DNA of 46,602 nt from a virus. This document shows positions 6,119 to 43,558 of the stretch, in pieces (position 1 is the stretch's first letter; each line of letters begins with the position of its first letter). The notes under the pieces were generated by a model. That model was not told where the DNA came from and ran no database searches. It was given only the letters and a program-made list of their open reading frames with translations. The DNA lies in IMG/VR virus record IMGVR_UViG_3300021142_000051, positions 1 to 46,602 of that record; one strand, written 5' to 3'. Position numbers and translations under genes: made by a program.

Positions 6119-6143
6119 AAGGGGGCTTCGGCCCCCTTTTTTT
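6119..6143 (+). terminator. Strong intrinsic terminator of gene 32
   Basis: AAGGGGGC and GCCCCCTT form an eight-pair stem closed by the very stable TTCG tetraloop (6127-6130), followed by a run of seven T residues (6137-6143). It separates gene 32 from the convergent minus-strand block, whose last stop codon overlaps the T run. On the minus strand the hairpin lacks a downstream T run, so it is mainly directional for +. Confidence 0.92.
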
Positions 6144-8055
6144 ACAACGGTCTTACAGCGTTATATTGGGCTTTTAACAACGTAGGTTCATTAGATCTTG
6201 CACCAATTTCTATTCCCATTGGAGATTGATTTGATGGCGTTCTTTGTGTACTTGCTCTGTTTTGCCCGCCTCCAGTTCCTTGATTTATAACTATTGGTTG
6301 CTGCGGTTGCATATTTGCCTGTTGTGTAGCTTCCGTTATATTTCTAGAACCAGAATCAATAATTTGTCCTTGGGTAATTGTATTTTCAGCTGCAGAAATT
6401 AATTCTGCTTTCTGGCTAATTATATTAGGGTTAGTATCTCTAATTACTGGTACAGGAAAAGATTCAATAGGTTTTAATTTTTGACCATCAGTAGTTTCTG
6501 TTGGTTGTGTGGTAATCTCTCTGTTATTAGGTTGCTCAGCTGTTGTTTGAACATTGGCTGGTTTATCGGTCGGTTGTTCAGCTGTTGCTACTTGCGTTGC
6601 TGTAGAATCTTGTGTTGCTCTTTCTGTAGCACCTTCGGTTTTCTTATTTGTTAATTCCTTTTCTATTTCTGGCGCCAAAACAGTTATAGATGCTCTTCCT
6701 TGCCTTGCATAGTCAGCTGCACTAGTGTTATTTGCGTCATGACTATCAATACCATTTAAAAATAAATTTGTTGCAGCTTTTGACCCTTTTAAGTGTGCAG
6801 CCTTTGCAAAAGCTGCAATATCACCAGGATCGCTATCTTCAGAAATAGCTCCTGATTTTATGCCCTGTTCTATATTTTTTTGCGTATATGATACGAATGC
6901 TTTATCTTGTAATTCTTTATTAGATAAGAAGTTAGATAAACCACCATCAATAGTCCAATTAGACGGATCGTGCAGGAATTGTTTTTGGCCTCCTTTGTAC
7001 CAATCACCTCCTGAATCTTTTTTAGCTTGCTTTAATTTGCCGCTATCTACTAATCCTTGGTCAGCTAATGCTTCTGCTCCGAATTGGTATTGTCCAACGT
7101 ATCCGTAATCATTTTCTACACCAACCCTATATCCGCTTTCAGTTTTTGCAACATTTGCTGCATACGCTTTAGTTTGCGCTTCAGAAAATCCTTTTAATGC
7201 TGGACCTTTAAATTCCAATGCTGCTTGTTTTTCAGATTTAGAAATTGCAGCTTTATCTTGTTGAACGTCCTTCCAAGTTCGTATTCTTTTCCCACCGCCT
7301 AAATCTGTGCCTGTTCTAGATTCAGGTTCTTCACCACCATATAATTGTTTTAATTTAGCAGCTCCCAAAAATAACCCAGCTCCTGCCGCTCCAATACCAC
7401 CTCCTACTGCTAAAGCTCCAAATATAGGACTTGCTGCAAGTCCAGCCAATATTTCTACTAAAGGAGCTAGTGCTTTTTGTAATGCTTGAACTAATTTATT
7501 TAATCCTGAAGATTTTGCTTTTGCGCCTTTTGGTGTATTTGGTTTTTTGGTTTGTGTTCTTCTATTTTGTTTTGGTGTGGGTTTTCTTCTTTTTGACTTT
7601 CTGTCAAACATATCCAAATCAAAATCAAAATCGTCAATTTTTAAGTTGTCTATCCTTACATTTTTTATTTTTAAATCATCTATTTCTAATTCATTAATTT
7701 TCAAATGCTTTATTTCTTTTTCCAAACCATCTTCTTTTAAAGGTTCTGTTTGGAAATCTTGTAATTTAGCGTCAAGAAGGTCTTGTTCTATTGTTTCTCT
7801 TCTAGTTTGTTTGTCAATGAATTTAACCAAAGATTGATTTATGCTATTTAAAATACTTTTTATATCAATAAGAGTTTTTAATATTTTCGTATTCTCTTTT
7901 GCATAAGTACCAGCAAAATTATCCGAAGTTGATTTATTAAACAAATTTGATGCAAATCCCATACTACCAAGAATACGACCTGCTGCCGTTTCTCTAATAT
8001 TGCTTTCATCAATTGCTTGATTTCTTGGATTTGCGTTTTGCGGTAATTTTGCCAT
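6142..8055 (-). CDS. Tape-measure-like virion protein with muralytic (lysozyme/SLT-like) domain
   Basis: A 637-residue protein. From the N-terminus: a helical region to about 100; an unusual stretch of five-residue units at about 118-150 (LKINE LEIDD LKIKN VRIDN LKIDD); a Lys/Arg-rich linker (152-182); a hydrophobic Ala/Gly-rich segment at about 195-235 that could cross a membrane; a transglycosylase-like region at about 285-470 with TESGY (E306 is the candidate catalytic Glu) and DYGYVGQYQFGAEALADQG; and a Thr/Gln-rich tail to 637. Length and hydrophobic segment fit a tail tape measure (T4 gp29 is 590), and the position directly after gp26 and the frameshift ORF mimics lambda G-GT-H. Alternatively it is a hub-associated tail lysozyme. 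An AGGT lies about 10 bases before the start. It is convergent with gene 32. Confidence 0.6.
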   Translation of the reverse strand: MAKLPQNANPRNQAIDESNIRETAAGRILGSMGFASNLFNKSTSDNFAGTYAKENTKILKTLIDIKSILNSINQSLVKFIDKQTRRETIEQDLLDAKLQDFQTEPLKEDGLEKEIKHLKINELEIDDLKIKNVRIDNLKIDDFDFDLDMFDRKSKRRKPTPKQNRRTQTKKPNTPKGAKAKSSGLNKLVQALQKALAPLVEILAGLAASPIFGALAVGGGIGAAGAGLFLGAAKLKQLYGGEEPESRTGTDLGGGKRIRTWKDVQQDKAAISKSEKQAALEFKGPALKGFSEAQTKAYAANVAKTESGYRVGVENDYGYVGQYQFGAEALADQGLVDSGKLKQAKKDSGGDWYKGGQKQFLHDPSNWTIDGGLSNFLSNKELQDKAFVSYTQKNIEQGIKSGAISEDSDPGDIAAFAKAAHLKGSKAATNLFLNGIDSHDANNTSAADYARQGRASITVLAPEIEKELTNKKTEGATERATQDSTATQVATAEQPTDKPANVQTTAEQPNNREITTQPTETTDGQKLKPIESFPVPVIRDTNPNIISQKAELISAAENTITQGQIIDSGSRNITEATQQANMQPQQPIVINQGTGGGQNRASTQRTPSNQSPMGIEIGARSNEPTLLKAQYNAVRPL

Positions 8056-8058
8056 TTG

Positions 8059-8253
8059 TTATGACCTATTTTGTTTTGCTCTTTCTATTTTTTCGTTAGT
8101 TTCTTTTATGTACTGTTCTAATTGTACAATATAAATTTCGCGTTCCCAAGGTATCATTGTTTCCAATTCAGACAAACTATATTTGTGGTGTTGCATTAAA
8201 GCAAAATTAGTTCTGTAATAGTTCGCTAAATTATCATGACAAAAAGTTATGCT
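8059..8253 (-). CDS. Frameshift-encoded C-terminal extension of gp26 (GT-like)
   Basis: An open frame in the -1 phase relative to gp26, running from the slippery site to a TAA at 8059-8061, four bases before the tape-measure-like start. It encodes 64 residues, including NYYRTNFALMQHHKYSLSEL and IPWEREIYIVQLEQYIKE, ending in a charged helix. The only ATG in the frame is at 8196 and would give just 45 residues with no evident Shine-Dalgarno sequence. The similar-looking segment NYYRTNFAL lies upstream of that ATG, which favours expression as a fusion of about 302 residues with gp26. A stand-alone 45-residue product (8059-8196) remains possible. Confidence 0.65.
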   Translation of the reverse strand, partial: SITFCHDNLANYYRTNFALMQHHKYSLSELETMIPWEREIYIVQLEQYIKETNEKIERAKQNRS

Positions 8254-8966
8254 AAAAAATTTTCAAGACCCTCCAGAACGATCTTATGTTCATATCCACA
8301 TTTTGTACATACTATATTAAATTCTTTTTTAAGTTTAGGTAAACGAGAGAAATGTTCTTCGATTTTTTTGAATTGCTCGTTATTTAAGTTATCAATCCAT
8401 TCAATTAATTCCTTATATGTAAATTCATCTTTATAATAAATTTTTTCAAAATCGAATACATAATCAACACAATTAGCTATAACTTCAGAAGTAGTATCCA
8501 TAACATCCATATCTTCGCTGAAACTTTTGATGATATCGAAATTAGGATGCTTCATTTTAAGACCTAGAGTCGAATCTAAGTTTATAATATCTGTATATCC
8601 ATTATAGTCAACTTCAACGTCTAAAACGTTTATTGGACATTCCATTTGATTATTACAGCTAATATCATCGACTACGTTTTTACATAGATATCTTGGCGTT
8701 ATTATTTCACCTATAGATCTTGCTCTTAATTGTAAAAAGAAGTATTCGATGTCTGTCATTGACAAAGCATCAACGTCAACTTCGCTTTTGCAACAAAATT
8801 TTATAACTTCTTTTATATTTTCGTTTATAAATGCTGCATCTTCTGATTCTAATGCAATCATAAGGATTTTTTGTTCTTTCACTGTAAATGGTCTGTACTT
8901 CACTTTTTCATTTTTTATAGGTAAAGTCAATTCATATATTGGTGCATTAATTACTGGCAAACTCAT
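8247..8966 (-). CDS. 26: gp26-like baseplate hub assembly protein / tail-assembly chaperone
   Basis: A 239-residue protein of the T4 gp26 (T4_baseplate) type; T4 gp26 is 208. The N-terminus MSLPVINAPIYELTLPIKNEKVKYRPFTVKEQKILMIALE is characteristic. Cysteines at C102-x9-C-x5-C and a C-terminal CTKCGYEH suggest a metal site. The end, LEGLENFLA, coincides with the frameshift signal, so a minority longer product is likely. GGAG lies about 8 bases upstream of the ATG. It stands between the tube-like protein and the tape-measure-like gene, the position of the G/GT chaperones in siphophages and P2-like myophages. Confidence 0.8.
   Translation of the reverse strand: MSLPVINAPIYELTLPIKNEKVKYRPFTVKEQKILMIALESEDAAFINENIKEVIKFCCKSEVDVDALSMTDIEYFFLQLRARSIGEIITPRYLCKNVVDDISCNNQMECPINVLDVEVDYNGYTDIINLDSTLGLKMKHPNFDIIKSFSEDMDVMDTTSEVIANCVDYVFDFEKIYYKDEFTYKELIEWIDNLNNEQFKKIEEHFSRLPKLKKEFNIVCTKCGYEHKIVLEGLENFLA
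8253..8274 (-). promoter_or_regulatory. Programmed -1 frameshift signal in gp26
   Basis: On the minus strand, GGAGGG (8274-8269) is followed after nine bases by T-TTT-TTA (8259-8253), in the correct X-XXY-YYZ phase with gp26 codons AAT TTT TTA GCA TAA. The gp26 stop lies two codons downstream. An SD-like element about 10 bases upstream of a slippery heptamer is the stimulator layout known from E. coli dnaX. I see no convincing downstream stem-loop in this AT-rich stretch. Confidence 0.65.
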
Positions 8967-8978
8967 TCTATTTCTCCA

Positions 8979-9512
8979 TTATTTTGTGGTATATCTATAC
9001 GCAAACGTAACCATCAATTTATGTACTTCATCAGTAGCACCCCAATCTAATTTTAAAGGGTGAACTGATATTGGAAATGCTTCAAACAATTTGGTCTTCA
9101 AACTGACCTTTCCGTTTAAACTATATTGTATGATAGTCACTTGTGTTGAATAATTTGATTTATAATTAAAATCAAATTGTGTTGGCGAAGTTGAACCTGT
9201 ACTGTCGCTGATTTTTTCCATCCAAGTATCAAATAATACTTTCTCTTTCATATCATCAGAACATAAAAATGTTAAGTTGACTTTTTCATAAAAGTTTTGT
9301 ACTGGAAAATATTGAACAGGACCATATGTTTTTTGTTCTACAAGCGAAAATGTCCTGGAAGGTAATTCAGTAGCTTCGCATTTAAAAGATAAATCTCCAA
9401 AATCAGCTCCAGAAATCTGGTTTATTGGTTGTGCTATAATAACTTCGAAGTTACAAGGTCTGGCTACATCTTTGTTAAATTTGCTTATAAATTGTGATAT
9501 GTTTGCGGCCAT
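8979..9512 (-). CDS. Tail-tube-fold protein (gp19 paralogue; possible tube initiator, gp54-like)
   Basis: A 177-residue protein with the T4-like tail-tube pattern: FISKFNKDVARPCNFEVII, then CEATELPSRTF, YGPVQYFPVQNFYEKVNLTFLCSDDM, FDTWMEKI, FNYKSNY, and near the end AFPISVHPLKLDWG with a final HKLMVTFAYRY. T4 gp19 is 163 residues. Its location in the hub block and not beside a sheath gene suggests it is not the main tube but the specialised first tube ring (role of T4 gp54) or another hub ring. GGAAG precedes the start. The next gene, gp26, begins 12 bases downstream. Confidence 0.75.
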   Translation of the reverse strand: MAANISQFISKFNKDVARPCNFEVIIAQPINQISGADFGDLSFKCEATELPSRTFSLVEQKTYGPVQYFPVQNFYEKVNLTFLCSDDMKEKVLFDTWMEKISDSTGSTSPTQFDFNYKSNYSTQVTIIQYSLNGKVSLKTKLFEAFPISVHPLKLDWGATDEVHKLMVTFAYRYTTK

Positions 9513-19229: not shown

Positions 19230-21965
19230 ATGTCAACTATAAAAATTTCTCAATTACCAATACTAACGCAATTAGAGGCAAATACCGCTAATACCGTATT
19301 TGTTGGAGTTGACATTGCGACTCAAACTACTGCTAAATTTACTGCAACTACTTTGGCGCAGGGATTGTATTCAAATAACGATTTAGTTGTTGGACAAAAT
19401 CCATTAGTATTTTCAAATACTGTTGGACAATTTTCAGGATCAGATCCGTTATATACGCAGATTAATCTACAAAACTTCAACTCTAATGGTTCGGCTGATT
19501 TTGTTATTACTGCAGACACAGGAACTAATGCCAATTCTTATATTGATTTAGGAATTAATAATTCAAAATGGAATTCTGCTACTTACGGACAAACAGCAGA
19601 ATATCCTTATGATGGATATTTAATAGTACAAGGACCAGGAACAGTAGGTTCTGGTAATCTTGTTATTGGTACTACTTCAACCAACACTTCATTAGTTATT
19701 GTTGCTGGTGGATTAGCAAATTCTAATGTTATAGCGAGCTTTAATCAAAATTCAGTAATTATAAATGAACCATCAACTATAACTGCTAATAGTTCTTTAC
19801 CAGGATTAGTTATAAATCAATATGGTTCTGGACAAGCTTTAGTAATTAATGATGCTCCAAACGATACAACACCTTTTACAGTTAATTGGGATGGTAATAC
19901 ATCTATAGGATCATTAAGTGCTAATGGATATAAATTATTAGTTGTCGGTAACGTAAACGTAACAGGTAACGTATATACAAATGGTAGTTTCGTATTATCA
20001 GATGGGTCATTAGCTGCTTCGAATAATTATGTAAATGCTAATGACGCTTTTGTATTATCTACCGCAATAGCTTATGCTAATGTCGGATTAAGCATTGCGC
20101 AGTCTGCCTATAATAATTCAAACGCATCATTTAATACTGCTAACGCAGGTTATAACGTTGCAAATTTAGCATTTGTAGTTGCTAATAATGCTTGGAATAC
20201 AGCTAATACCGCTAATACTACTGCAAATATAGCATTAAGTACCGCACAAGCAGCATACAACCAAGCAAATACTTCCAACACATACGTAAAAAATAATTAC
20301 GTTGCAAATACGAGTACCATAACGTTAAATAATTTGGTTGTTGGTGGAAATCTATACGCTAATAATGTAGGAACTTCAGTATCGTTTAATAGCGTAACGT
20401 CAAATAATGCTGTATTTTCTCAAAACATTACTGTTTTAGGTACATTAACTTGTAATACAGCGCAAGGTAATGTTTTCTTCTCTAATATAACAACAATTAG
20501 TTCACAAGCTAACATTATTCAATGGTTAGCACAAACAAATCCTCCAGCTCAAACTCTTGGACAAGTTTGGTTTTCTGCTAATGACGTTTCTTTAGTAGAA
20601 GATACTGACGTTGCTAATGATAGACCATTAGTAGGTAAAGTATTATATGAAAAAGTATATAACGGTTCTGGCGCAACTATTGCAGCAAATTCATGGGTAA
20701 GACTTGCTGGCGCAGTTACCGCAACAGCTATACCATATGTTGTTTTAGCAGATGCAACTAACGCTGCTAATTCCTTTGTTTCTGGATTTATTAAAAATTC
20801 CATTGCAAACGGATCTTATGGTTATGTTTATACGCAAGGTATTGTTAATAACCTAAACGCTTCTACGTATAATAATGGTGATATTTTATTCTTATCAACT
20901 ATTCCAGGAGCAGCACAGAATACTGCGCCAACAGGAGCTAATGTTGTCGTACAATTAGCAAAAGTATTGAGTAATAGCGGAACAGTTGGTAAGTTACAAG
21001 TTAATATTTTACCACAACCAAGTTGGGGTAAAAATAATGGTTCTGTATTGTACGCTTTAAATAATATCGTTGTAGCAAGTAATACTATTAGTATTAACGA
21101 TTCTACCCAATCAGTAACATTAGCAGGAAGTATTGGGTTGAATGGTTCTATTACAATGAACAACACGTCTTTCCTTGCTAATAGTTTTGGTGTTGGTATA
21201 ATTGGTTCAACTAATGGAGCATATCAACCACCTCTTGCTGACGGAACCATGTTGCAAATTACTGGTAAAGACGGAGTAAACTCTAAATTAATCAACGATG
21301 CTGCAGGTAATGGAGTTTATGCTCTTTATAATGGAAGATCCATGCGAGGAACTGCGCAAAGTCCTAGCGCATCCCAAGCAGGAGATATCTTAGTAAGATT
21401 TGGGGGAACTGGTTACGGTAACACTGGGTTTGGTGGCGTTCTTTCTGGTGGAGCTAAGATAGATTATATTGCTCTTGAAAATTATACAGATACGTCAAAG
21501 GGAACACAGATATTATTAGCAACCACTCCAGTTGGTTCTAATTCATTGGTCAACGTTGCAACTTACACCGCTAATTCTGTTAATTATTATCAAAATACCG
21601 CTCTATTTGTTGCTAATACTATTCACTATAATGCAAATTATAATAACGTAACAGTAACGCAATTAGCTAATAAAGCAAATTCTGTCTATGCTAATGGTCG
21701 TACTGGACAGATTACTACTAACGGCGCAAATATAAACAAAGGATCTGTAGTATCTTTTACCGTTTATAATACATACATTACGAGCGCAAAGGATGTTGTA
21801 ATATTGAATGTTGCTAGCGGAGCATCAGTAGGATATGGATTAACAGTTAATAGTGTTACTCCTGGCAGTTTTACTGTATGTGTTAATAACTGTGACGGAA
21901 CTCCATCTGGATCGAATGCTGCAGATACATTAGTTATTAACTTTGCTATCATAAACGTGACCTAA
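19230..21965 (+). CDS. Tail-fibre-like virion protein
   Basis: A 911-residue protein. The N-terminus MSTIKISQLPILTQLEANTA is typical of T4-like cyanophage fibre/virion proteins. Residues about 55-190 form a beta domain (ADFVITADTGTNANSYIDLG, EYPYDGYLIVQG, GSGNLVIGT) whose relatives recur in the two giant fibres downstream. Residues about 277-350 are roughly ten heptads of the x-x-aromatic-N-x-A-N type. Then comes a domain (LGQVWFSANDVSLVEDTDVA, ANSWVRLAGAV, NNGDILFLSTIPG, GKLQVNILPQP) resembling decorating domains of fibres and capsids, followed by a variable C-terminus. It is inserted between the gp7-position gene and gp8, a place with no fibre gene in T4. Confidence 0.75.
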   Translation: MSTIKISQLPILTQLEANTANTVFVGVDIATQTTAKFTATTLAQGLYSNNDLVVGQNPLVFSNTVGQFSGSDPLYTQINLQNFNSNGSADFVITADTGTNANSYIDLGINNSKWNSATYGQTAEYPYDGYLIVQGPGTVGSGNLVIGTTSTNTSLVIVAGGLANSNVIASFNQNSVIINEPSTITANSSLPGLVINQYGSGQALVINDAPNDTTPFTVNWDGNTSIGSLSANGYKLLVVGNVNVTGNVYTNGSFVLSDGSLAASNNYVNANDAFVLSTAIAYANVGLSIAQSAYNNSNASFNTANAGYNVANLAFVVANNAWNTANTANTTANIALSTAQAAYNQANTSNTYVKNNYVANTSTITLNNLVVGGNLYANNVGTSVSFNSVTSNNAVFSQNITVLGTLTCNTAQGNVFFSNITTISSQANIIQWLAQTNPPAQTLGQVWFSANDVSLVEDTDVANDRPLVGKVLYEKVYNGSGATIAANSWVRLAGAVTATAIPYVVLADATNAANSFVSGFIKNSIANGSYGYVYTQGIVNNLNASTYNNGDILFLSTIPGAAQNTAPTGANVVVQLAKVLSNSGTVGKLQVNILPQPSWGKNNGSVLYALNNIVVASNTISINDSTQSVTLAGSIGLNGSITMNNTSFLANSFGVGIIGSTNGAYQPPLADGTMLQITGKDGVNSKLINDAAGNGVYALYNGRSMRGTAQSPSASQAGDILVRFGGTGYGNTGFGGVLSGGAKIDYIALENYTDTSKGTQILLATTPVGSNSLVNVATYTANSVNYYQNTALFVANTIHYNANYNNVTVTQLANKANSVYANGRTGQITTNGANINKGSVVSFTVYNTYITSAKDVVILNVASGASVGYGLTVNSVTPGSFTVCVNNCDGTPSGSNAADTLVINFAIINVT

Positions 21966-33363: not shown

Positions 33364-34971
33364 ATGCCAGGGTTCATACTTAGGAGATTGACGCCAGCTG
33401 GTTCTATAACGATACCTGCTGGTCAATCCGGAAATTTAACTCTTCCTTTCGGAGTTAGAAAAGTAAATATCAATATGGTTGGATCTCCTGGCAATCCAGG
33501 CAATCCAGGCAACAACGGCATTGCAGGAAACGCAGGTGCTGCTGGAAATGCCGGCAACCCAGGAAATCCGGGTAATAATGGAGCAGCAGGAAGTGCAGGT
33601 GGTGCTGGTAATGCTGGAAATCCAGGTAATTATGGAGGTAATGGTTCTGCTGGTAATGCAGGTGCTGGTAACCCAGGCAATCCATCAGGTGCCGGTGGCG
33701 GCGGTGGCGGCGGTGGCGGCGGTGGCGGTGGAGGTGCCAAAGCAGCAGTAAACGTTTATAATAATAATGGTAACTTAATTACAACTTACTCAAACGCAAC
33801 CCCAGGAGGGGCTGGTGGTAGTGGTTCGCCTGGATCTCCTTCTGGAAATGCTAGCGGAGGATATGGTGGTGCTGGTGGAAATGGCGGTGCTGGAAGTAGT
33901 CACGCAGCAGGTAACTATGGATCAAGAGGCTGTTATGGATCTGGTGGCTCTTTGGGCGGTTGTGGTAATTGGAGTTACGGTGGTCCCGGTACTGCTGGAT
34001 ATAATGGTAATGCGGGTGGTAATGGATATGGAGCAACTTCTGGTGGATCTGGAGGCAACGGCGTTGCAGGAAGTGCAGGTAACGCAGGAACAGGAGCAAC
34101 ACCAGGAAATCCGGGTAATAGTGGCGTAGCAGGAACTGCAGGATCTGCAGGAACATCATCTAATTTCTTTAACTTCATAGCACCTGCTGGTAATGCTGGT
34201 AATGCAGGTGCTGCTGGAAATCCGGGTAATGCTGGAAATCCGGGGAATAATGGAGTAGCAGGAACTGCAGGATCTGCAGGTAATTCAGGTAATGCTGGAA
34301 ATCCGGGGAATAATGGTATTGCTGGTAATGGTGGATATGCTGGAAATCCGGGTACACCAGGAAACCAAGGTTCTGCTGGTACTGGAAATCCTGGAGGATA
34401 TAGTATAGCAGGGTTGGGAGGTATTGGTGGCGGTGGCGCTCTTGCAACGGGAGCTACTAACTATCCTAATTTTACAGTATCATATCCAGCAAACACTTGT
34501 ACTCCTTGCGCCAGCAGTTATTGTACATCAGGTAATAATGGAGGCGGTACTGGAGGATATAGAGGATGTTATGCAAACGCTAGATATTCACTCGGAGCTG
34601 TTGCAAATGCAACAAGCGGAGCAGGTGGTGCTGGTGGAGGAGGAAGCGCAACTTTAGGCAGTCCAGGTAATGCAGGAACTGCTGGAAATCCAGGTTCTTA
34701 TGGATATGGTGCAACAGCAGGAAATCCGGGTAATTCAGGAGCAGCAGGAAGCGCAGGTAACGCAGGAACAGGAGCAACACCAGGAAATCCGGGTAATTCA
34801 GGAGCAGCAGGTTCAGCGGGAAATCCAGGATCAGGAGCTACCTCTGGTGGATCTGGTGGCACAGCACAAACAACTACCTACAATGGACAAATTATACAAG
34901 CTAGAACGCCATATGCATATTCAACCGCACCAACAACAGGTTCAATACAAATTTCTTGGAGTAGACAATAA
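33364..34971 (+). CDS. Collagen-like / glycine-rich adhesin-type virion protein
   Basis: A 535-residue protein. Residues 1-39 form a small beta domain (RLTPAGSITIPAGQSGNLTL). From G40 there are about twenty uninterrupted Gly-X-Y triplets dominated by GNP, GNN, GNA and GAA, then a run of 14 glycines. Further blocks include a second run of about 21 triplets around residues 279-340. I count about 16 Asn-Pro-Gly sites. Cys-containing islands (GCYGSGGSLGGCG; NTCTPCASSYC) and aromatic segments separate the blocks, and a beta C-terminus ends the protein (TTGSIQISWSRQ). It could be a collagen-like trimer or a polyglycine-II tip like the glycine-rich gp38 adhesins of T-even phages. It sits one gene upstream of two 2OG-Fe(II) oxygenases. 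Confidence 0.8.
   Translation: MPGFILRRLTPAGSITIPAGQSGNLTLPFGVRKVNINMVGSPGNPGNPGNNGIAGNAGAAGNAGNPGNPGNNGAAGSAGGAGNAGNPGNYGGNGSAGNAGAGNPGNPSGAGGGGGGGGGGGGGGAKAAVNVYNNNGNLITTYSNATPGGAGGSGSPGSPSGNASGGYGGAGGNGGAGSSHAAGNYGSRGCYGSGGSLGGCGNWSYGGPGTAGYNGNAGGNGYGATSGGSGGNGVAGSAGNAGTGATPGNPGNSGVAGTAGSAGTSSNFFNFIAPAGNAGNAGAAGNPGNAGNPGNNGVAGTAGSAGNSGNAGNPGNNGIAGNGGYAGNPGTPGNQGSAGTGNPGGYSIAGLGGIGGGGALATGATNYPNFTVSYPANTCTPCASSYCTSGNNGGGTGGYRGCYANARYSLGAVANATSGAGGAGGGGSATLGSPGNAGTAGNPGSYGYGATAGNPGNSGAAGSAGNAGTGATPGNPGNSGAAGSAGNPGSGATSGGSGGTAQTTTYNGQIIQARTPYAYSTAPTTGSIQISWSRQ
33694..33735 (+). repeat. GGC/GGT microsatellite encoding polyglycine
   Basis: A near-perfect nine-base repeat of GGTGGCGGC-type units gives 14 consecutive glycine codons. 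It is the most GC-rich stretch of an otherwise AT-rich window. Gain or loss of units changes the polyglycine length in steps of three and keeps the frame. Confidence 0.85.
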
Positions 34972-37231: not shown

Positions 37232-40200
37232 ATGGCAAATACAGCTCCAATTCAATTTATAAGATCGTTTACCCCAGGAAAAGTTCCTGATGCAGCAAAT
37301 GTAGCAGTTGGTGGACTAGCAGTAAATCTAGCAGATAGAATAATCTATTCTAAAGATCCGACTGGTAATGTAATATATTTTATTGACCCTGATGTTAATT
37401 CTCTTGCAAATATTGCAAATTCGTTATTATCTGCGGCTAATTCAATTACTCCCGCATATGCGCAAGCGAATTCTGCATACGCGCAAGCTAATGTGGCTTT
37501 ATCAGTAGGGCAACACGCATATAATACAGCTAATTCCATATGGGCTGAAGCTAACAATGCTTATGTCGAAGCAAATAATGCTTACAATTTAGCAAGTTAT
37601 ACATATTCTTTTGCTGCTAATGCTTATATATTTGCATCAAGTATAGCCAATAACGCATATAATACAGCTAATTCCGCTTGGTTTACTGCTAATACAGCTA
37701 ACGCTACCGCTAATTTATCTTTAAATAACATAAAATCTGCTTGGAATACAGCCAATGCAGGTTATAATGTTGCCAACTTAGCATTTGTGGTTTCTAACTC
37801 TGCTTGGAATACTGCTAACGCAGGTTACAACGTAGCCAACCTATCTTTTGTAGTTGCTAACAGCGCTTGGAACACTGCTAATACAGCCAATGGAACTGCT
37901 AACATTGCGCTAAGTACCGCACAAGCAAGTTATAATAACGCTAATATTGCATACAATAGAGCTAATACAGCATATGCCCAAGCAAATAATGCATATACAT
38001 ACGCTTCTAATATAGCTAACAACTCATTTATTTCGGCTAATTCTGCTTGGAATACAGCTAACGCTGCATACAACGTTGCCAACTTATCATTTGTAGTTGC
38101 TAATTCAGCATTTAATACAGCCAACGCTAGTTATAATGTAGCAAATTTATCCTTTGTTGTAGCTAATTCTGCTTGGAACACTGCTAATACTGCTAACGGA
38201 ACCGCTAATATCGCATTAAGCGTTGCTCAGTCTGGATATAATAATTCAAATTCTGCATTTAATACTGCTAATGCTGCGTACAATGTTGCCAACCTATCTT
38301 TTGTAGTTGCCAACAGTGCTTGGAACACCGCTAATACTGCTAACGGAACAGCCAACATTGCGTTAAGCGTTGCTCAGTCTGGATATAATAATTCAAATTC
38401 TGCATTTAATACTGCTAATGCTGCGTACAATGTTGCCAACCTATCTTTCGCAGTTGCTAACTCTGGTTACAATACCGCTAATGCTGGATATAACGTTGCC
38501 AACCTATCTTTCGCAGTTGCTAACTCTGGTTACAATACCGCTAATGCTGGATATAATGTAGCAAATTTATCTTTCAATGTTGCTAATGCGTCATTTAATA
38601 CAGCCAACGCTAGTTATAATGTAGCAAATTTATCCTTTGTTGTAGCTAATTCTGCTTGGAACACTGCTAATACTGCTAACGGAACTGCCAACATTGCGTT
38701 AAGTACTGCGCAAGCAGGTTATAATAATTCCAATGGAGCATTTAATACAGCCAATGCTAGTTATAATGTAGCAAATTTATCTTTCAATGTTGCTAATGCA
38801 GCATTTAATACTGCTAATGCTGGATATAAAGTTGCCAACCTATCTTTCGCAGTTGCCAACTCTGCTTGGAACACAGCGAACGCTTCATACAATACTGCAA
38901 ATTCCTCTTGGAATACAGCTAACGCGTCATATAACGTTGCCAACTTAGCGTTTGCAGTTACTAATTCTGCGTTCAATACCGCTAATGCTGGATACAATGT
39001 AGCAAATCTAGCGTTTGCAGTTGCTAACAGTGCGTGGTTTACTGCGAATACAGCCAACGGAACTGCTAATATCGCGTTAAGCGTTGCACAATCTGGATAT
39101 AATAATTCAAATTCTGCATATGATCAAGCGAATTCTGCATACGCTACTGCTAATGGTAAGTTATCAACGTCTGGTGGTACTATCAATGGTAGTTTACTCA
39201 TCACAAACGACTTAACAGTTAACGGTAACGTTTCTTATGTAGGCAACGTAAATTCGCTAACGATCACTGGTAACACTGGTGAATTCTTTGGTAACACCGG
39301 AACTGGATTTAATGCGTTATATGCTGGCATTCCAGTTGGATTCGTATTCGAACCTCAAACAGTTGTTCAAGTAACTGGAAATTATAATAGCTATTCACAA
39401 GTTAATCATCAGAATATCAATAGCGGGAACAATAGTTCAACTGATGTTATTTGTACTGCAGATAACGGTAATGCAAACGATACGTTCATCGATTTAGGTA
39501 TCAACAGTTCAACATACTATCAAGACGGATTTACTTTAAGTAATCCTAATGATGGTTACTTGTATGTACAAGGTAACACAGCTACAGGAGGCGGCAACTT
39601 AATTGTAGCTACAATGTCTAATAACGACATTATATTCGCCACTGGTGGACAAAACTTAAATAACGAACAAGGTCGTTGGAAGAATAACGTTGGGTTGGTA
39701 ATTAAGAAAACAACACCTTCTATTAACGTAACTTCTGGTGCATTACAAGTTGCTGGTGGTGCTGGTATATCAGGTAACGTTTATGCAGGAGCTGTTTATT
39801 CTGGCGGCACATTAGTTTTAACAGCCGAACCAACAGGTAATGCTGCATATGTTGCCGCAAACAGTGCTTGGAATACGGCCAACACAGCGTATAACGTTGC
39901 CAACCTATCTTTTGCAGTTGCTAACTCTGGATTCAATACCGCTAATGCTGGATACAATGTAGCAAATCTAGCGTTTGCAGTTGCTAATTCTGGATTCAAC
40001 ACTGCCAATGCTGGATATAATGTAGCTAATTTATCTTTTGCAGTCGCTAACTCTGGATTCAATACTGCCAATGCTGGATACAATGTAGCAAATCTAGCGT
40101 TTGCAGTTGCTAACGCATCATTCAACACTGCCAATGCTGGATATAATGTAGCCAACTTAGCGTTTGCAGTTGCTAACTCTGGATTCAATACTGCTAATGC

Positions 40201-43200
40201 TGGATACAACGTTGCCAACCTATCTTTTGCGGTCGCTAACAGTGCTTGGAATACAGCCAATACTGCTAACGGAACTGCTAACATTGCTTTAAGTGTTGCA
40301 CAGTCTAGCTATAATAATTCTAATTCAGCGTTCAACACTGCCAATGCTGGATACAATGTAGCAAATCTAGCGTTTGCAGTTGCTAACGCATCATTCAACA
40401 CTGCCAATGCTGGATATAATGTAGCCAACTTAGCGTTTGCAGTTGCTAACTCTGCTTGGAATACAGCTAATACCGCTAATGCAACTGCTAACATTGCTTT
40501 AAGTGTTGCACAGTCCGGATACAATAATTCAAACGCTGCGTTCAATACTGCTAATGCTAGCTACAATGTAGCCAACCTATCATTTGCTGTTGCTAATTCT
40601 GCTTGGTTCGCGGCTAATACCGCTAATGCAACTGCTAACATTGCATTAAGTATTGCTCAAGCCGGGTATAATAATTCAAACGCTGCGTTTAACACTGCCA
40701 ATGCTGGATATAATGTAGCCAACTTAGCGTTTGTAGTTGCTAATTCTGCTTGGAATACAGCTAATACTGCTAATGCAACTGCTAACATTGCGTTAAGCAT
40801 TGCTCAGTCTGCATACAATAATTCTAATGGAGCGTTTAACACTGCCAATGCTGGATATAATGTTGCAAACATTTCTTTCAACGTTGCTAATTTGTCTTTC
40901 GCAGTTGCTAATGCGGCATTCGACACTGCCAATGCTGGATATAACGTTGCCAATTCCGCTTGGTTCACAGCTAATACTGCTAATGGAACCGCTAACGTTG
41001 CTTTAAGTGTTGCCCAAGCTGCATATAATCAAGCCAATACTGGTGGCGGTAATACCGTTTATGCGGCATATCTAACTGCTAATACTGCTAATGCGACTGC
41101 TAACATTGCTTTAAGTGTTGCCCAAGCTGCATATAATCAAGCCAATACTGGTGGCGGTAATACCGTTTATGCGGCATATAACCAAGCCAATATTGCGTAT
41201 TTAACCGCAAATACGAAAGTTTATAATTTTAGACAGAATACTGCTCCAACTTCTGCAAATACGAGCGATACTTGGACTAATATTGACACTGGTGTAATAT
41301 ACGAAAATTGGGGAAATACATCTAATCCTGTTTGGGCAGAATTCGGTCCAACTGGAGTTATGGCTAATTCTGCTCCTGGGATATTATCAGCTTTAAGTAT
41401 TTCTTCTGGTCCAATTGCAGTAAATGGTAATATATCATCTAATACTTCGTCGATATATTCATCAAACAGCTCTATATTAGTAAGCGCAAACAATAATATA
41501 ACGTCAATATTCCATACAGGAAAAAGATTTTCTGTAAATGCACAAGATACAACAATGGTAGGTATTAGTTTTAGTACTGATGGTACAAAAATGTATCTTT
41601 GTGGATATATTAACGATAAAGTATATCAATACAATTTATCAACGCCTTGGGATATCTCAACATCTAGTTATGTAGCTAATACTTCCATTTCAGCTCAAGT
41701 GACATCACCAGAAGATTTAGATTTTAGTTCTGATGGATCAAATATGTATGTTGTTGGTACATCAGGCAATGGTGTGTCCAGATATACATTATCAACACCT
41801 TGGGATATTACAACAGCTACATATGTAGCCAATACTAATATTTCCATAGGGACAAGTTTGTATGGTTTACATTTTAAACCTGATGGAACTGCGTTTTTCA
41901 CTTGCTCGTTTACGTCAGGCACTGTACAAAAATACAATTTAGGAACTGCATGGGACGTAACCACCGCATCATTTGTTAATGGTCTTTTAATATCGTCGCG
42001 TTCACCATCCCCTTCGTCGTTAACATTTTCTGCTGATGGATTTATAATGTATGTTGTTGATACGACATATGATATTGTCTTGCAATATAATTTAGGAACT
42101 GCATGGGATATAACCACAGCAACATATGTTGGAAAACTGTATATTGGTTTTCAAGACACAACAATGTATGGCATTTATCTCACGCAAAGTCAGAATAAAC
42201 TTTTCCTTAGTGGAATCGATTCTGATACTGTTTGTGAATATGTTTTAAATAACGATAATCTGCAAATATCAACAAATTCTGTTTATATTGCTGCTAGAAC
42301 AACTATCGGTAATGATTTTGTTGTTGCAGGAAACACAAAAATAGATAATAGACTTATAACTGATGGAGCTTTAACTGTTAATGGTCCTGTGAATGTAACA
42401 GGACTTACAGCAATTACAGGACCGACGACAATTACTGGTCAGTTGACTGTAACCGGAGGATGTACTCTTGGTAGCAATGCCGCCTTTAATTTTATAGGCG
42501 CTTCGCAGACCACCGGAACAACCACCATAGGTGGAGGAAACCAAACAGGAACTATAACTATTGGTCCGTCATCGGCAACACAATCTATCAATATTGCTAC
42601 TGGAGCAACCACAACAAGCAATACAAAAACAGTCAATATTGGTACTGGTGGTTCTAGTAATTCTAATACAAATATAACAATAGGTTCTGCGGTATCTGGT
42701 TCTTTAGGAACAACGACAATACAAACTCCAAATGTTATAATAACTTCTGCAAATACTGCGCAGAGTGCTGTATCATTATTAGGAACAATTCCTTCAACAT
42801 CACCTACAACTGGTGCTTTGACTGTTGCGGGTGGTGTTGGTATTTCTGGTAATTTAACTGTTGGTTCAATTATTACTGGAAATTATATACCTTCTACCGC
42901 TGTTGGTGCAGCAATACAACTTACTGCAGCCAATACTAATGGTGGTACAGGTTATGCAGATTTCCTAAAAATCACCAACGTTTCTGGGGGAACCACTAAT
43001 CAGAATAAATGGATTCGTATATCTTCTATTGGTGAATTACAAATCGTTAATAGTGCGTATCAAATTACAGCTTTATCTTTGAGCGATGGCGGTGATTTAA
43101 CTCTTGCTGGTAATACAACAGTTAATGGTATAGCTGCAGGATATGCTCCAAATCGTCCAGCATTTTGTGTCAGAGGAAACGGTGGACAAGTTTCCGCGAC

Positions 43201-43558
43201 AACAACATTGACTAATAGTAATTGGAACATTGAATATAACCAAGGAAATTATTTAAATGGAACTACTGGTATATTTACAGCGCCTGTTGCAGGATTATAT
43301 CAGGTAAATCTAGTTATCAGAACTTCCGTTAATAATTATAATAATATCATACAAGCATTAGTAAGAAAAACTGCAGCTATTGGCGGAGGAACTACGACAC
43401 TAATTATGGTAGAATTTGGAAATAACACTTCAATGAATCATGCTGGCGGAAGTAATATTGTTAAAATGGCAGTGGGTGATACTCTTCAGCTAATAGCGTC
43501 TGCAGGTACAATTAGTTTTGATGGTAATGATAATTGGTCAGTAGCATACATAGGTTAA
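37232..43558 (+). CDS. Giant tail fibre with heptad coiled coils, beta-propeller-like and C1q-like domains
   Basis: A 2108-residue protein. Domain order: N-terminal anchor (1-55, APIQFIRSFTPGKVPDAANV); heptad array 1 (about 73-640, x-x-aromatic-N-x-A-N); beta domain (about 640-865; VIC-TADNG-NDTFIDLGINSS, DGYLYVQG, QGRWKNNVGLVI); heptad array 2 (about 869-1329); a short fibre domain (TWTNIDTGVIYENWG); five propeller-like units (about 1428-1675; DGSNMYVVG, YTLSTPWDITTATY); a beta-rich stem (GPTTITGQLTVTGG); and a C1q/TNF-like tip (about 1970-2108; GIFTAPVAGLYQVNLVI ... GNDNWSVAYIG). It probably forms a trimeric adsorption fibre. The next fibre gene starts four bases after its stop. Confidence 0.85.
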   Translation: MANTAPIQFIRSFTPGKVPDAANVAVGGLAVNLADRIIYSKDPTGNVIYFIDPDVNSLANIANSLLSAANSITPAYAQANSAYAQANVALSVGQHAYNTANSIWAEANNAYVEANNAYNLASYTYSFAANAYIFASSIANNAYNTANSAWFTANTANATANLSLNNIKSAWNTANAGYNVANLAFVVSNSAWNTANAGYNVANLSFVVANSAWNTANTANGTANIALSTAQASYNNANIAYNRANTAYAQANNAYTYASNIANNSFISANSAWNTANAAYNVANLSFVVANSAFNTANASYNVANLSFVVANSAWNTANTANGTANIALSVAQSGYNNSNSAFNTANAAYNVANLSFVVANSAWNTANTANGTANIALSVAQSGYNNSNSAFNTANAAYNVANLSFAVANSGYNTANAGYNVANLSFAVANSGYNTANAGYNVANLSFNVANASFNTANASYNVANLSFVVANSAWNTANTANGTANIALSTAQAGYNNSNGAFNTANASYNVANLSFNVANAAFNTANAGYKVANLSFAVANSAWNTANASYNTANSSWNTANASYNVANLAFAVTNSAFNTANAGYNVANLAFAVANSAWFTANTANGTANIALSVAQSGYNNSNSAYDQANSAYATANGKLSTSGGTINGSLLITNDLTVNGNVSYVGNVNSLTITGNTGEFFGNTGTGFNALYAGIPVGFVFEPQTVVQVTGNYNSYSQVNHQNINSGNNSSTDVICTADNGNANDTFIDLGINSSTYYQDGFTLSNPNDGYLYVQGNTATGGGNLIVATMSNNDIIFATGGQNLNNEQGRWKNNVGLVIKKTTPSINVTSGALQVAGGAGISGNVYAGAVYSGGTLVLTAEPTGNAAYVAANSAWNTANTAYNVANLSFAVANSGFNTANAGYNVANLAFAVANSGFNTANAGYNVANLSFAVANSGFNTANAGYNVANLAFAVANASFNTANAGYNVANLAFAVANSGFNTANAGYNVANLSFAVANSAWNTANTANGTANIALSVAQSSYNNSNSAFNTANAGYNVANLAFAVANASFNTANAGYNVANLAFAVANSAWNTANTANATANIALSVAQSGYNNSNAAFNTANASYNVANLSFAVANSAWFAANTANATANIALSIAQAGYNNSNAAFNTANAGYNVANLAFVVANSAWNTANTANATANIALSIAQSAYNNSNGAFNTANAGYNVANISFNVANLSFAVANAAFDTANAGYNVANSAWFTANTANGTANVALSVAQAAYNQANTGGGNTVYAAYLTANTANATANIALSVAQAAYNQANTGGGNTVYAAYNQANIAYLTANTKVYNFRQNTAPTSANTSDTWTNIDTGVIYENWGNTSNPVWAEFGPTGVMANSAPGILSALSISSGPIAVNGNISSNTSSIYSSNSSILVSANNNITSIFHTGKRFSVNAQDTTMVGISFSTDGTKMYLCGYINDKVYQYNLSTPWDISTSSYVANTSISAQVTSPEDLDFSSDGSNMYVVGTSGNGVSRYTLSTPWDITTATYVANTNISIGTSLYGLHFKPDGTAFFTCSFTSGTVQKYNLGTAWDVTTASFVNGLLISSRSPSPSSLTFSADGFIMYVVDTTYDIVLQYNLGTAWDITTATYVGKLYIGFQDTTMYGIYLTQSQNKLFLSGIDSDTVCEYVLNNDNLQISTNSVYIAARTTIGNDFVVAGNTKIDNRLITDGALTVNGPVNVTGLTAITGPTTITGQLTVTGGCTLGSNAAFNFIGASQTTGTTTIGGGNQTGTITIGPSSATQSINIATGATTTSNTKTVNIGTGGSSNSNTNITIGSAVSGSLGTTTIQTPNVIITSANTAQSAVSLLGTIPSTSPTTGALTVAGGVGISGNLTVGSIITGNYIPSTAVGAAIQLTAANTNGGTGYADFLKITNVSGGTTNQNKWIRISSIGELQIVNSAYQITALSLSDGGDLTLAGNTTVNGIAAGYAPNRPAFCVRGNGGQVSATTTLTNSNWNIEYNQGNYLNGTTGIFTAPVAGLYQVNLVIRTSVNNYNNIIQALVRKTAAIGGGTTTLIMVEFGNNTSMNHAGGSNIVKMAVGDTLQLIASAGTISFDGNDNWSVAYIG
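37447..39140 (+). repeat. Heptad-repeat array 1 of the giant fibre
   Basis: About 1.7 kb (roughly 80 units) encode seven-residue units such as SAWNTAN, AGYNVAN, LSFVVAN, TANGTAN, IALSVAQ and SGYNNSN. Units are often grouped in threes (63 bases). Protein identity is high, while codons vary synonymously between copies. Confidence 0.9.
38432..38557 (+). repeat. 63-bp exact tandem duplication inside array 1
   Basis: The block at 38432-38494 is repeated immediately at 38495-38557, almost without difference until the last codons. It covers three heptads and looks like a recent unit duplication amid otherwise codon-diverged copies. Confidence 0.85.
39836..41220 (+). repeat. Heptad-repeat array 2 of the giant fibre
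   Basis: About 1.4 kb (roughly 65 units) of the same seven-residue pattern, after the beta domain. It includes several copies of a 63-base block with AGYNVAN-LAFAVAN-SGFNTAN, and near its end two copies of a block encoding TANATANIALSVAQAAYNQA and the Gly-Gly break NTGGGNTVYAAY. Confidence 0.9.

Follow-up and report, generated by a model that had tools for sequence, protein, structure and literature searches.

The sequence analyzed (hereafter the window) was the whole 46.6 kb (46,602 nt) of IMG/VR virus record IMGVR_UViG_3300021142_000051, a T4-like marine phage. All features of the locus lie on the minus strand. Gene 26 (8247-8966) encodes a 239-residue protein that matched Pfam PF12322 (E 5.8e-55) and phrog_150 (E 5.6e-58), and these profiles together with the predicted fold point to the short form of a tail assembly chaperone (baseplate hub assembly chaperone). 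A tail tube-type gene lies upstream of it (8979-9512; phrog_45, tail tube, E 1e-34). The last codons of gp26 are AAT TTT TTA GCA TAA, which place the heptamer T TTT TTA (8259-8253) in the exact phase for a -1 shift, and a Shine-Dalgarno-like GGAGGG (8274-8269), a possible frameshift stimulator, stands nine bases 5' of the heptamer; both elements, reported in the initial annotation, were confirmed. The -1 frame contains an ORF of 64 codons plus stop (8253-8059), with the size and position originally given, and the next gene (6142-8055), which starts at 8055, encodes a 637-residue structural protein.

The -1 ORF had been presented without an identification. It matched phrog_634, "baseplate hub assembly catalyst" (gene 51), with an E-value of 9e-26, and also the final C-terminal portion (positions 236-281 of 282) of phrog_150, the gp26 family profile. 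A Pfam match to Stealth_CR2 (E 1.7e-4) fell below the cut-off and was taken as chance. A tblastn search with the -1 ORF found relatives in 569 phage records and, among the matches listed, homology began at codon 2 after the slip. In public records the region is annotated as a separate gene 51 CDS or a hypothetical gene, with various starts, or is omitted. By sequence, the window gp26 and -1 ORF thus belong to the T4 gp26/gp51 family, with the T4_baseplate domain in the short form and the gp51 domain, the C-terminal part of a putative gp26-gp51 protein, in the extension.

In the 13,494 codons of 31 window genes there are 89 in-frame XXXYYYZ heptamers, just three of them TTTTTTN; the site that closes gp26 is the only one followed by a -1 ORF of at least 40 codons. 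The conservation of this site was determined by an IMG/VR search whose patterns were drawn from mid-gp26 and not from the slip site, which gave 80 loci; together with two further IMG/VR relatives (L006 and L007), 14 phage records and the window these made 97 gp26 loci. An in-frame TTTTTTN was present near the gp26 stop in 95 of the 97, including all 82 IMG/VR relatives, and always opened into a gp51-like -1 ORF. The hosts of the phage records are Prochlorococcus, Synechococcus, Pelagibacter, Methylophilales, Sinorhizobium, Rhizobium, Cronobacter, Vibrio, Stenotrophomonas, Xanthomonas and Aeromonas. The proposal that the heptamer and the -1 ORF are kept together across gp26 loci was therefore borne out.

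In the 95 loci the codon ahead of TTTTTTN specifies Ser, Asn, Asp, Gly or Ala, yet its third base is always T. With one locus per 50% cluster, each with its own codon usage, the codon bias at the slip site gave a log10 P of about -8 for NNT and about -10 for TTT, values that are too strong since independence is assumed and the loci are related. Phages of about 50% GC that prefer TTC still use TTT at the slip; gp26 of Rhizobium phage AF3 has 12 TTC and no TTT codons outside the slip, where the codon is TTT. In an alignment of 41 loci the six T of the slip form an invariant, unbroken block, and the most variable codon position is the third of the 0 frame upstream and the third of the -1 frame downstream, so that the wobble, measured as codon-position entropy, moves from the 0 frame into the -1 frame at the slip and ahead of the stop codon of gp26. 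These results indicate that a correctly phased X XXY YYZ heptamer is conserved beyond the protein sequence, and that the -1 frame is under selection from the slip site onward.

T4 and its relatives, in which genes 26 and 51 are separate, differ from this phage, where a single locus carries the slip. T4 gp51 (249 residues) matched PF12322 over residues 1-201 and phrog_150 with an E-value of 2.6e-84 (residues 3-248 onto positions 13-280), whereas T4 gp26 matched phrog_150 only as far as position 235. In hhalign comparisons with T4-type gp51, the window gp26 aligned to residues 8-200 (E 1.5e-8) and the -1 ORF to residues 205-245 (E 7e-7). T4 gp51 is thus composed of a gp26-like domain and a -1-ORF domain, and would therefore correspond to the long form encoded as a gene of its own. 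As judged from these alignments, the short and long forms have the N-terminal domain in common, in a frameshift layout here and as two genes in T4. GLKEFF is the C-terminus of gp26 in T4 and its closest relatives, with the two Phe coded TTC TTT; more distant ones differ in residues, and the heptamer is present in none of them. No gp51-like ORF was found behind T4 gp26. On the sequence comparison, phages with a separate gene 51 have lost the heptamer from the end of gp26, which provides a natural control.

The predicted model of gp26 had a pLDDT of 86.1 and a pTM of 0.79. Its best three PDB matches, over residues 1-94, were 3fgx (Z 8.0; 85 residues aligned, 3.6 A), 2ob9 (Z 7.3) and 3klu (Z 7.0), the next match scoring 4.5. 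All three, including 2ob9 (HK97 gp13) and 3klu (YqbN), are described as tail assembly chaperones (PMC9603447). The initial annotation had suggested a structure prediction of gp26 with its extension; the model of gp26 came out in favor of a chaperone, and solved tail assembly chaperones are the best match for the N-terminal fold of the gp26 model, a Z of this size alone being no proof. In a fold search with a T4-type gp51 model, chaperones were absent from the matches listed, which is not evidence against a chaperone fold, and PDB sequence searches with gp26 and with the extension revealed no credible relatives. The lambda gpG/gpGT, P2, Mu and HK97 counterparts likewise comprise a short and a -1 extended chaperone, and the N-terminal domain of HK97 gp13 is similar in fold to that of gp26; gp26 is the larger protein, having an extra C-terminal half (residues 95-239), and its slip sequence, T TTT TTN, differs from that of lambda.

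A different function for these proteins, as structural parts of the baseplate hub and not as tape-measure chaperones, would leave the frameshift itself untouched. The database names ("baseplate hub") and the older T4 literature, which puts gp26 in the hub, agree with such a role. However, T4 gp51 is required yet absent from the phage particle (PMC3004832), the gp26 N-terminal domain fits solved chaperones, and papers that cite Vladimirov, Gautam & Davidson (2022) report tail assembly chaperones in T4-like phages, as far as those citations convey it. We therefore consider a structural hub role unlikely.

The gene after the -1 ORF had been described as tape-measure-like. It does begin where expected, and its product carries a lysozyme-like domain (phrog_27932, tail lysozyme, E 8e-15); it did not match phrog_1283, the T4 gp29 family, and is a candidate tape measure. 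In the window (6142-8055), L006 (3913-6021) and L007 (3910-5961) the ends of the gene that follows gp51 are conserved, and its middle encodes a different peptidoglycan-hydrolase domain in each, which suggests, from the sequences of these three close relatives, that domain swapping may have occurred in a tail or tape-measure protein.

The start codons available to the -1 ORF bear directly on the alternative of separate translation of gene 51, through termination-reinitiation or from a weak start of its own, with the T run being a mere Phe-Phe codon pair. The initial annotation recognized a single ATG in the window ORF, lying past the segment NYYRTNFAL. There are two, M20 and M33, and the first lies just past that segment, so the start-codon argument stands. 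The upstream open stretch of the window -1 frame contains no ATG, GTG or TTG. The window and 25 other loci (26 of 95) have none of these codons in the -1 frame before the conserved segment HDNLxNYYxTNFAL, and 45 of the 95 have no ATG there. An ATG does occur before codon 14 in the other 50 of the 95 loci, overlapping as TAATG or TGATG in the records of phages K575, BUCT608 and AF3, and public records annotate gene 51 as its own CDS, as separate translation would predict; the start positions, however, are not shared between loci, the heptamer is maintained against codon preference, and T4 gp26 has Phe-Phe without the T run. Separate translation as the general explanation is thus very unlikely, although re-initiation could supplement or replace frameshifting in the roughly half of the relatives with an ATG soon after the site. 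The same fusion protein could also arise by transcriptional slippage on the six-T run, the mRNA gaining or losing one T, and a six- or seven-T run is indeed conserved. Transcriptional slippage usually requires longer runs, whereas most loci here have no more than six T, and both the heptamer phase and the preceding NNT codon fit tandem tRNA slippage, which makes a transcriptional origin highly improbable.

The computed slip site, its conservation, the selection on the -1 frame, the homologies and the fold are best explained by a frameshifted chaperone pair, because the heptamer is conserved, the wobble switches frame at the slip, some loci lack any start codon ahead of the conserved segment, T4 has lost the heptamer and the N-terminal fold best matches that of chaperones. 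From them we infer the slippage, its rate and the chaperone function: a programmed -1 frameshift at the end of gp26 very probably generates a short and a long form. Most ribosomes would terminate at the stop codon of gene 26, producing the 239-residue short chaperone, while a minority would move one base back on T TTT TTA, both tRNAs re-pairing on TTT TTT, bypass the gp26 stop and read through gene 51 to give a 302-residue gp26-gp51 fusion. As with lambda gpG/gpGT, the N-terminal domain of both forms may coat the tape measure or a hub protein, and the rarer C-terminal domain may recruit another tail component. In T4 the same two products would come from gene 26 (short) and gene 51 (long). The original proposal that gp26 is the T4-branch equivalent of the G/GT pair is supported by the heptamer, the -1 frame selection, the start-less relatives, the T4 loss and the fold.

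The contribution of the Shine-Dalgarno-like element is less uniform. Anti-Shine-Dalgarno pairing at the window GGAGGG was stronger than in synonymous recodings (p ~0.01). The upstream GGAGG had been expected to be conserved with the heptamer, and this held in part: GAGG occurs at one fixed position in 49 of 95 loci, the remainder being without it. Compared with synonymous recodings, the pairing had a mean z of -1.1 over all loci and -0.8 over the 50% clusters, nearly half of which showed no excess, and the Glu-Gly encoded at GAGG is a conserved protein motif, complicating its reading as a stimulator. No consensus RNA structure 3' of the slip was found in 41 aligned loci; the single-sequence folding energy downstream of the slip was somewhat below that of the upstream control. 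The site resembles E. coli dnaX in having a Shine-Dalgarno-like element about 10 bases upstream. The dnaX signal combines an A AAA AAG slip with a strong downstream hairpin, in contrast to the T TTT TTA found here, where the 41 aligned loci revealed no conserved hairpin.

Within the T4-like marine group we encountered neither a shared independent start for the small ORF nor loss of the heptamer with the small ORF kept, either of which had been named beforehand as evidence against frameshifting. The small ORF is kept and the heptamer absent in five Ackermannviridae and two Vibrio phages, all of them distant relatives. In the Ackermannviridae (L016, L109, L110, L112 and L113) gp26 ends ATT TTC ATT TAA, and the -1 frame directly behind it encodes the gp51-like domain, in most cases with no ATG to start from. 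In Vibrio phages K364 and D508 the gp51-like domain is also in the -1 frame and there is no XXXYYYZ heptamer. The ends of gp26 in these exceptions thus carry ATT TTC ATT TAA, CTT TTT or CTT TTC in place of the heptamer. Tentatively, and with rather less expectation of being right than wrong, it may be that the Shine-Dalgarno-like element, fixed some 10 bases 5' of T TTT TTN, tunes the slip in the marine T4-like branch, and that in the Ackermannviridae and some Vibrio phages the long form comes from a conserved non-classical site. On that same tentative reading one chaperone family would be expressed in three or more ways (slip, separate genes and an unknown mode).

The initial annotation knew of no description of a frameshift at gp26, a statement that does not hold up. 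Atkins et al. (2016) described the frameshift as conserved in long-tailed phages "except T4". Vladimirov, Gautam & Davidson (2022; Virology 566:9-15) are credited by later papers with identifying T4-like chaperones (PMC10885494, PMC12846349). As cited there, short and long chaperone genes are present in some T4-like phages (PMC10885494) and poly-T slip signals are known in T4-like chaperone genes (PMC12846349). The citing papers do not print gene numbers, and by our reading the proteins concerned are the same as gp26 and gp51. Beyond the papers citing Vladimirov et al., our literature search returned nothing on a gp26/gp51 frameshift. In Vandenendeviridae phage Adele, too, the short chaperone gene ends with a conserved T-rich -1 site (PMC12846349), although this phage belongs to another family and its motif is GTTTTT and not T TTT TTN. 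Going by what the citing papers relate of Vladimirov et al., the frameshift described here is a new and well-supported instance of a kind already published and, the core idea being in print, serves mainly to confirm that idea broadly and to improve annotation. In cyanophage gp51, Sullivan et al. (2010) noted the absence of the first 200 residues and a length about 20% of that in T4 (PMC3037559). This fragment-like appearance would be explained if gene 26 contributes the missing part via frameshifting. In hundreds of phage records the gp26/gp51 annotation should accordingly become one frameshifted gene, and T4-like tails would be tied to the lambda/P2/Mu scheme.

Two other parts of the window encode repetitive proteins. 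The regions 19230-21965 and 37232-43558 contain long proteins with many near-identical repeats of the NTANAxYNVANLxFxVAN type, probably tail fiber or adhesin-like, and a 535-residue glycine-rich, collagen-like protein with GNPG/GNAG repeats is encoded at 33364-34971, in a structural gene region.
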